From Serpens gallinarum (GTDB taxonomy: Bacteria; Pseudomonadota; Gammaproteobacteria; Pseudomonadales; Pseudomonadaceae), in NCBI RefSeq assembly GCF_014836765.1, contig NZ_JACSQG010000001.1, forward strand, positions 124,001-188,000: DNA of 64,000 nt. Direction: 5' to 3'. The translations under genes and the position numbers were made by a program. The notes under the pieces were generated by a model. It was not told where the DNA came from, searched no databases, and saw only the letters and a program-made list of their open reading frames with translations. This document shows positions 43,771 to 45,465 of this stretch, piece by piece. Positions within the stretch are counted from its first letter, which is position 1. Each line of letters opens with the position of its first letter.

Positions 43771-44436
43771 ATGAGCTACCAACACCAATACATTGACGGC
43801 ACCACCATTCATTACCCGCTGGGCAAGGTGGTCTGCGTGGGGCGCAACTACGCCGAACATGCCAAGGAGCTGAACAACCCGGTGCCCACCGAGCCGTTGC
43901 TGTTTATCAAGCCAGGCAGTTGCACGGTATCGCTGATAGGTGGATTCAGCATTCCCGAAGAGCGCGGCGGTGTGCATTACGAGGCGGAAATCGCCGTGTT
44001 GATTGGCAAGCCGCTGTCGCGCCGGCCAAGTGTCGAGGAAGTGCTGGATGCCATTTCCGGCCTTGCGCCGGCCTTGGACCTGACCCTGCGCGACGTACAG
44101 AGCGCGCTCAAGGAAAAGGGCCTGCCTTGGGAGATTGCCAAGTCGTTCGACGGCGCCTGTGTGCTGGCGCCCTTCGTGCCCGGCGACGCCATCGCTGACT
44201 TAGCCGACCTGGGCATTCGCCTGAGCATCAATGGCGAAGTGCGCCAGGATGGCCACAGTTACGACATGCTCAACCCCATCGTGCCGCTGATCCAGCACAT
44301 GGCCGGGCATTTCAATCTGCAGCCTGGCGACGTGATCCTCACGGGCACGCCCGCCGGCGTTGGCCCGCTGCAGCGTGGTGACGAACTGGTCCTCGAGTTG
44401 CCGGGCCTGTCGCGCTTCGAAAGCCGCGTGTTGTAA
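43771..44436 (+). CDS. Fumarylacetoacetate hydrolase (FAH) family protein
   Basis: This 221-residue FAH-fold enzyme has VVCVGRNYAEHAKELNNPVPTEPLLFIKPG, YEAEIAVLIGKPL with the metal-binding Glu, DLTLRDVQ and LTGTPAGVGPLQRGDE, all expected of the family. FAH-family members cleave C-C bonds in diketo acids or decarboxylate oxaloacetate. The substrate is unknown. It lies 37 bp after the D-2-hydroxyglutarate dehydrogenase gene and is probably co-transcribed. Confidence 0.87.
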   Translation: MSYQHQYIDGTTIHYPLGKVVCVGRNYAEHAKELNNPVPTEPLLFIKPGSCTVSLIGGFSIPEERGGVHYEAEIAVLIGKPLSRRPSVEEVLDAISGLAPALDLTLRDVQSALKEKGLPWEIAKSFDGACVLAPFVPGDAIADLADLGIRLSINGEVRQDGHSYDMLNPIVPLIQHMAGHFNLQPGDVILTGTPAGVGPLQRGDELVLELPGLSRFESRVL

Positions 44437-44472
44437 ACCGGTCTCTCGCATAACTCGCCACCTGCTGACTCT

Positions 44473-44546
44473 GTAGGAGCGACGTGTCCGCGATTTGAGG
44501 GCCATTTCCGTGCTGCCGATATCGCGGACACGTCCGCTCCTCCTAC
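44473..44546. repeat. Pair of inverted REP elements (REPIN-like)
   Basis: GTAGGAGCGACGTGTCCGCGAT (44473-44494) faces ATCGCGGACACGTCCGCTCC at 44521-44540 and TCCTAC at 44541-44546, with 26 bases between. The sequence belongs to the Pseudomonas REP class (GTAGGAGC...GCGAT). A paired inverted arrangement is typical of REPINs spread by RAYT transposases. It lies just after the FAH-family gene. Confidence 0.8.
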
Positions 44547-44633
44547 CAAGCGACCCCGATAAGGCAAATCGCCTATGGGTACCGACCCTCTGCCGCAGCC
44601 AAACGAGCTGCGCCTGGGTCAGACACGCGGTCT

Positions 44634-44671
44634 TTAAGCTTCGTTTAAGGCGCTCTTCAGCTTCGCTTCAG
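44634..44671 (+). promoter_or_regulatory. Four phased half-sites of BqsR/CarR type before the carO-like gene
   Basis: TTAAG-N6-TTAAG (44634-44649) is followed six bases later by TTCAG-N6-TTCAG (44656-44671), so the four repeats all have an 11-bp period. The first pair is an exact match to the TTAAG-N6-TTAAG motif reported for the P. aeruginosa response regulator BqsR (CarR), which acts on Fe(II) or Ca and controls PA0320 (carO), a homologue of the next gene. The second pair is an imperfect copy. The array ends 50 bp before the start codon. Confidence 0.7.
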
Positions 44672-44721
44672 CGGCTAGGCTTACCCTGTGCTGGTCAAAC
44701 CATGATCAAGGGGTAAACCTC

Positions 44722-45069
44722 ATGAAACGTACTCTATTGGCTTTGCTGCTGGTACCGGCCTTCTCCGTCACGGCCTTTGCGGCCGGTTACAGTGGTCCGG
44801 GCGGGGTCGAATCCGTCACCACTGTGTCTGCTGCACTGGAAGCCGCCGACGACACGCCCGTCACCCTGGAAGGCCAGATCGTGCGGCGCATCGGCAAAGA
44901 AACCTACGAGTTCAAGGACGCCACCGGTTCCATCGAGGTGGAGATTGATGATGACGAATGGCCGAACCAGACCGTTTCGGAAACCGCCAAGGTGCGCATC
45001 AGCGGTGAAGTGGACGCGGGCATGACCAGTCGCGATATCGACGTCGAGCGCGTTGAGCTGCTGCAGTAA
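44722..45069 (+). CDS. carO: OB-fold stress protein (YgiW/CarO type)
   Basis: This 115-residue periplasmic protein has a signal peptide (residues 1-21, AFA), then GYSGPGGVESVTTVSAALEAADDTPVTLEGQIVRRIG and an OB-type beta barrel (YEFKDATGSIEVEIDDDEWPN). The family is linked to stress, calcium or metal tolerance, and the P. aeruginosa relative PA0320 (CarO) is induced by calcium. The phased repeats upstream fit such control. A long perfect terminator follows. Confidence 0.85.
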   Translation: MKRTLLALLLVPAFSVTAFAAGYSGPGGVESVTTVSAALEAADDTPVTLEGQIVRRIGKETYEFKDATGSIEVEIDDDEWPNQTVSETAKVRISGEVDAGMTSRDIDVERVELLQ

Positions 45070-45083
45070 CACTTTGGCAGATC

Positions 45084-45120
45084 AACACAACGAACCCGCC
45101 ACTGGCGGGTTCGTTGTGTT
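45084..45120. terminator. Strong terminator after the carO-like gene
   Basis: AACACAACGAACCCGCC and GGCGGGTTCGTTGTGTT form a 17-bp perfect stem with a 3-base loop. It lies between carO and the convergent yegP-type gene and may serve both. Confidence 0.85.
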
Positions 45121-45129
45121 CAGTTGCGG

Positions 45130-45465
45130 TTACACCGCTTCATCAAGCAGCACGGCTTCAACAGCGTGGCGCTTGACCGACTCGCTGCCGTGCTCGGCAC
45201 TGCCCCGGCTGGTATACATCTGGCTTTGTCCGACCACCTGGCCATTGGTGGCCTTGAGCACGAAGTAGTGCTTTTCGTTGCTGCCGGCCTTGATCTCGAA
45301 AGCACCCTCACGCTGGGAATTGTTGCGCACCGATTTAATGCCGTTTAGCGCAGAGTCCTTGGCTTTGTAGAGTTCGCTGGTCAGGATGATCTGGCCATTG
45401 CTGGCCAACAGGTTGAAGTGGAATTGGCCGTTGCTGGAACGTTTCAGATGGAATTTGCCGGACAT
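45130..45465 (-). CDS. YegP/DUF1508 family protein
   Basis: This 111-residue protein has two tandem DUF1508 repeats (FHLKRSSNGQFHFNLLASNGQIILTSELYKAKDSALNGI and FEIKAGSNEKHYFVLKATNGQVVGQSQMYTSRGSAEHGI-like), each of about 50 residues. E. coli YegP has the same design and no known function. It is divided from rpiA by 77 bp, in the same direction. Confidence 0.86.
   Translation of the reverse strand: MSGKFHLKRSSNGQFHFNLLASNGQIILTSELYKAKDSALNGIKSVRNNSQREGAFEIKAGSNEKHYFVLKATNGQVVGQSQMYTSRGSAEHGSESVKRHAVEAVLLDEAV

Follow-up and report, generated by a model that had tools for sequence, protein, structure and literature searches.

The window, i.e., the whole 64,000-nucleotide stretch of Serpens gallinarum DNA that was analysed, contains a gene for a small protein of the bacterial OB-fold (BOF) family, preceded by four short direct repeats. 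In the earlier note, these repeats were described as four half-sites with an 11-bp period, lying upstream of a carO-like gene. Their coordinates and spacing were read directly from the sequence and are as claimed, and the PFAM match of the gene product (PF04076, E 4.9e-29) confirms it as a CarO homologue. The features of the control region and the gene are as follows:

44634..44638, plus strand: pentamer 1 of the distal pair, TTAAG in direct reading
44645..44649, plus strand: pentamer 2 of the distal pair, TTAAG in direct reading
44656..44660, plus strand: pentamer 3 of the proximal pair, TTCAG in direct reading
44667..44671, plus strand: pentamer 4 of the proximal pair, TTCAG in direct reading, the same in every array found
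44682..44687, plus strand: candidate -10 element TACCCT, 10 nt past pentamer 4, where TAnnnT is found in 90 of 90 arrays
44722..45069, plus strand: carO-like gene (ATG at 44722), encoding a BOF protein of 115 amino acids
45077..45127, no strand assigned: inverted repeat without a T run, separating carO from the gene for DUF1508, which is convergent with it

The array, TTAAG-N6-TTAAG-N6-TTCAG-N6-TTCAG, runs head-to-tail in 11-bp steps and starts 88 nt 5' of the BOF/CarO gene, whose product has a signal-sequence-like N-terminus and is the one BOF match in the genome. The neighbours of carO are an FAA hydrolase gene and the DUF1508 gene, and the surrounding ORFs resemble SerA, an FAD oxidase, RpiA and IlvA. 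A promoter scan of 44400-45150 found no sigma-70-like promoter (0.1 expected) and there is no consensus -35, which agrees with, and does not prove, an activator substituting for the -35 element. On the downstream side, the inverted repeat at 45077..45127 is a possible transcript end of carO; the terminator scan found no terminators. In addition, a 14-bp perfect inverted repeat (44473-44546, starting GTAGGAGCG) lies between the FAA hydrolase gene and the array; its left-arm motif occurs once in the window and it presumably belongs to the elements that go by the name REP or REPIN in Pseudomonas.

The exact pair TTAAG-N6-TTAAG is a single copy in the window, where 0.013 are expected under a first-order Markov model of the window, and occurs twice in the 3.9-Mb genome. 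As the backward control also gives two, the exact pair by itself is not improbable in the genome. The relaxed form, TTMAG-N6-TTMAG, has nine matches in the genome versus 11 in the backward control, and three of the nine are overlapping steps of the carO array itself. For four-pentamer TTMAG arrays, the same model of the window gives an expectation of 2e-7 per window and 1.3e-5 per genome. The array, unlike the pair, is therefore improbable by chance. Its TTAAG-like pentamers are in direct orientation with spacers of exactly 6 bp, the arrangement by which a BqsR/CarR operator is recognised. A TAnnnT hexamer at +10 stands behind three of the nine genomic TTMAG pairs, namely the last pair of the carO array and one site each on contigs C12 and C13 (see below). 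The pairs at C1:867306 (the other exact TTAAG pair), C1:1060819, C2:375278 and C14:50774 have no TAnnnT at this offset and were therefore taken as background.

The earlier note had proposed to look for the same array in relatives. In a family sample of 298 genomes, drawn evenly from a larger group, a CarO relative was found in 95 (E<=0.001), and all 100 listed BOF matches of these genomes were scanned, allowing each pentamer at most one mismatch to TTAAG. The array is kept in 90 of the 100 CarO-like ORFs, with four pentamers in 68 and two in 22, while an intact set of three was found in none and ten have no array. All 90 arrays carry TAnnnT exactly 10 nt past the last pentamer and at no other offset between 5 and 25, in a scan that did not require the hexamer. 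The ten ORFs without an array fall in six genomes (G003, G013, G029, G040, G267 and G126). The carO copy of G126 has lost pentamer 4, the -10 and its own 5' part through a deletion that reaches from just behind pentamer 3 to mid-gene; the first three pentamers are left. Named genomes gave 221 relatives, and of the 80 best of these all but one carry the array (59 with four pentamers and 20 with two, Azotobacter vinelandii being among them), with a last pentamer TTCAG in all 79, a set which overlaps in part with the family set and whose related species are not independent. The lone exception among these best 80 loci is Deefgea rivuli, with a CarO relative and no array. The genus supplied two genomes to search, and since the second gave no CarO match the family was compared instead. 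P. aeruginosa is not among the best 80 of the 221 named relatives, nor was it identified in the compared genomes; of 25 genomes from the same genus as G113, the one nearest to the CarR receiver of PDB entry 8gc6 has 97% identity to it, and none of them is taken for P. aeruginosa.

Two further arrangements were seen in the family sample. In G149, carO is present as a tandem pair with a four-pentamer array before each copy. G040, G013 and G029 encode distant BOF paralogues with TTAAT-N6-TTAAT (once TTAAA-N6-TTAAT) about 95-116 nt before the gene, and these repeats, judged by their letters, are closer to the PmrA box than to the BqsR site.

The pentamers differ in how strictly they are kept. In the 68 four-pentamer arrays, pentamer 2 is always TTAAG, whereas pentamer 1 is TTAAG in 50, TTCAG in 17 and TTAAT in one, and pentamer 3 is TTCAG in 38 and TTAAG in 30. 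The first pentamer of the 22 two-pentamer arrays is TTAAG (14) or TTCAG (8). The last pentamer is TTCAG in every one of the 90 family arrays. Across 64 distinct four-pentamer sequences, uncorrected for kinship, each within-pair spacer has three columns of at least 1.5 bits, and no column of the between-pair spacer exceeds 0.9 bits. Taken together with the two-or-four counts, this conservation within pairs leads us to regard the pair as the unit and the array as two dimer sites in phase. By the same comparison, the TTCAG-ending promoter-proximal pair is the predicted fixed core and the upstream pair is optional. The earlier note had taken the TTAAG pair for the main site and the TTCAG pair for its degenerate copy; the array itself stands, but these roles do not, since it is the TTCAG-ending pair that is retained in all 90 arrays, at a fixed distance from the -10-like hexamer. 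On a CarO tree of 94 rows, which is poorly resolved given the short protein, four switches between two and four pentamers are required, of which well-supported branches force at least two. It seems somewhat more probable than its opposite that the carO control region changes in steps of one dimer site, with pairs gained or lost as single blocks and the last half-site held at TTCAG, never at the consensus TTAAG. If so, the promoter-proximal half-site would be selected away from the consensus (tuned, or shared with the polymerase), and the distal pair would let evolution adjust the gain of the Fe(II) response.

A search of the genome for bqsSR, as suggested in the earlier note, recovered both an orthologue of BqsR and an adjoining kinase gene, so that the refuting condition set in that note, a genome lacking any bqsR homologue, does not apply. 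There are nine Trans_reg_C matches in the genome, and the one in question is:

Locus L008, 1483-2151 (contig C13), minus strand: BqsR/CarR orthologue, best PDB matches 8gc6 and 9yfa

The first of these is the P. aeruginosa CarR receiver (8gc6, E 8.6e-66); the second, 9yfa, is CarR and matches the DNA-binding part (E 3.6e-43). A histidine kinase ORF (HATPase_c, bqsS-like) follows directly with a 4-nt overlap and a PepSY-domain gene precedes bqsR, giving the order PepSY-bqsR-bqsS. Upstream of these three genes lies the C13 site, TTCAG-N6-TTAAG at C13:40114-40129, followed after 10 nt by TAACGT. The 30 best bqsR loci, of 277 genomes with a match, were compared, and a site with TAnnnT at +10 was present upstream in all 30, as TTCAG-N6-TTAAG in 23 and as TTCAG-N6-TTAAT in seven. 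Because a site like that of carO is found on the bqs operon, the motif can be tied to BqsR. The phyletic distribution points in the same direction, with BqsR (E<=1e-75) in all 89 array-bearing genomes; this co-occurrence is weak by itself, since BqsR is nearly universal in the family (277 of 298 genomes). Among the six genomes with CarO but no intact array, two (G003 and G029) lack a BqsR match at this threshold, which is suggestive at most of a tie between array and regulator.

The site on C12 was found on the minus strand (pair 94219-94234), where TTCAG-N6-TTAAG, 10 nt and TAGCCT precede genes for a DUF1924 protein and a dihaem cytochrome c, and a gene for cytochrome b561/flavin reductase is divergent from them. 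By its motif and position, the C12 site is likely a further BqsR target, linked to electron transfer.

The best-described counterpart is the carO promoter of P. aeruginosa (PA14_04180). According to PMC4682146, it has four pentamers, of which 3 and 4 are critical, whereas 1 and 2 add to the output without being required; expression falls below 10% when the spacer is 5 or 7 bp long, reversing or reverse-complementing the upstream pentamer brings the promoter to background, and carO is the gene most upregulated by BqsR in PA14. That paper also reports arrays of up to five pentamers and places pentamer 4 over the -35. Of the earlier suggestion of cooperative or graded binding, the graded part is supported by PMC4682146, in which the extra pair raises the output and is dispensable; cooperativity between the pairs stays a proposal.

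The main rival to BqsR is a PmrA-like regulator. The genome encodes a PmrA/QseB-like protein (genome G000, contig C4, locus L009) whose best PDB matches are BasR/PmrA structures (4s04, E 9.6e-49), and it could be the main binder, or both regulators could bind, with carO then answering to polymyxin-type or other envelope stress and not to Fe(II) via BqsR. The PmrA box of PMC3973317 matches the array in its 11-bp period and very nearly in its half-sites. Moreover, in P. aeruginosa, polymyxin B and two antimicrobial dendrimers are reported to induce carO together with the arn genes (PMC7179292), and the similar OmdA is reported to be under PmrA/PmrB control (PMC8120321). The distribution of L009 speaks against this explanation. 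The search for it covered G001 and 67 of the 95 CarO genomes, 68 in all, with at most 42 candidates scored per genome, and among the 61 of these with an intact array an orthologue of at least 70% identity was found in 17 and not found in 44, eight of the 61 having no match at E<=1e-55, while BqsR is present in every array genome. Distant PmrA-like regulators (45-57% identity) do occur in most array genomes without a close L009 orthologue and could act in its place. With the position of carO at the head of the genes upregulated by BqsR in PA14 (PMC4682146) also weighing for BqsR, we consider control mainly or jointly by the PmrA-like protein unlikely.

The repeats could also be read as an inverted-repeat operator or an RNA hairpin instead of direct half-sites, given that CTTAAG is palindromic, so that the TTAAG pair reads on the other strand too, and that minus-strand matches with two mismatches overlap the array. 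The last pentamer is the non-palindromic TTCAG, in the same orientation in all 90 arrays and with 11-bp direct spacing, and the upstream pentamer of P. aeruginosa does not tolerate inversion (PMC4682146), which makes a symmetric element highly improbable. As for chance, or mutational leftovers without function, single pairs do occur at the background rate in the genome, but the minute expectation for four-pentamer arrays and the fixed spacing retained in 90 of 90 arrays render this explanation practically negligible, conservation already disfavouring it.

The signal was left in the earlier note as calcium or ferrous iron, and the system was reportedly named CarRS for calcium in earlier work. 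In a 2025 paper, only Fe(II), and not Ca, is reported to stimulate the ATPase of BqsS (PMC12666569). Direct calcium control is for this reason less likely, and of the two options it is Fe(II) that the literature favours. PMC12666569 also gives, for P. aeruginosa BqsS, Glu48 as the key Fe(II) ligand and Glu45 as an auxiliary one, with Asn49 needed for signalling. The BqsS of the host genome has Glu45, Glu48 and Ile49 by residue number, unaligned to the E45xxE48 of P. aeruginosa. By residue number again, and within the 30 best of the 277 bqsR loci, only three kinases have both Glu45 and Glu48, residue 48 is Gln in 16 and Glu in 14, residue 46 is Glu in all 30, and Asn49 is found in none. Either the metal site of the sensor varies from species to species, or these residue numbers may not be equivalent. 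As the signal, Fe(II) is the more likely candidate, on the strength of the literature more than of the residue comparison.

Weighing these points, we interpret the array as the BqsR (CarR) operator and promoter of carO, driven by BqsS most likely on Fe(II), with a probability of roughly 0.82. Under this interpretation, phosphorylated BqsR dimers would sit on pentamer pairs 11 bp apart, head-to-tail; the proximal dimer (pentamers 3 and 4), at a fixed distance from the -10, would replace the -35 and recruit RNA polymerase in the manner of OmpR/PhoB-family activators, and the distal dimer (pentamers 1 and 2), about two helical turns upstream, would be an add-on that raises the output. BqsS, most likely responding to external Fe(II), would in this way drive carO, with its product made under Fe(II) or cation stress. 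The sequence, the conservation, the spacing, the presence of bqsRS and the like site on the bqs operon were observed here. Activation by BqsR, the need for the 6-bp spacer and the roles of the two pairs are shown for P. aeruginosa in PMC4682146, and for Serpens gallinarum we infer binding, activation mode and signal. Some findings stand against the BqsR assignment: the TTMAG-N6-TTMAG pair has no genome-wide enrichment, the PmrA box has a nearly identical sequence and the genome encodes a PmrA-like regulator, and G013, G040 and G267 have BqsR together with BOF genes (38-52% identity) and no array. Against a simple Fe(II) scheme stands the poor retention of the ExxE motif, by residue number, among the 30 best of the 277 loci. 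With the core half of the array identified, the two- and four-pentamer promoters offer a natural series in which doubled activator sites can be set against the strength of the Fe(II) or cation-stress response.

The layout has parallels in other OmpR-type systems. The PhoB (pho) box consists of 11-bp direct repeats that replace the -35 and lie about 10 bp ahead of the -10. The array has a like layout with the second repeat similarly placed, and differs from the PhoB box in its core (TGTCA in the PhoB case) and in its signal. The PmrA (BasR) box of enteric bacteria, given as CTTAAG-N5-NTTAAT in PMC3973317, shares the head-to-tail half-sites, the 11-bp period, the TTAAG/TTAAT cores and an OmpR-family regulator; it is described there with one pair, whereas the carO array has two, a last half-site fixed as TTCAG, and BqsR in every array-bearing genome. 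Searches of one open-access library turned up no account of the array in further species, PMC4682146 being the only paper found there that treats it. The PA14_04180 promoter described there shares four pentamers, 6-bp spacers and an activator, and the gene behind it is likewise a carO of the BOF family, a likeness taken from the published description. Its critical downstream pair and additive upstream pair fit the proximal core seen here, but its pentamer 4 is placed over the -35, whereas here a -10 at +10 puts pentamer 4 just downstream of a normal -35. We therefore regard the array as a real, conserved predicted operator of a promoter kind already known, including for the same-named gene in P. 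aeruginosa. The comparison of sequences adds four points, namely a last pentamer apparently fixed as TTCAG, a constant 10-nt step, the rule of two or four pentamers, and the bqs-operon site in all loci read, by which a promoter known in detail from one species is extended to many species of the family.
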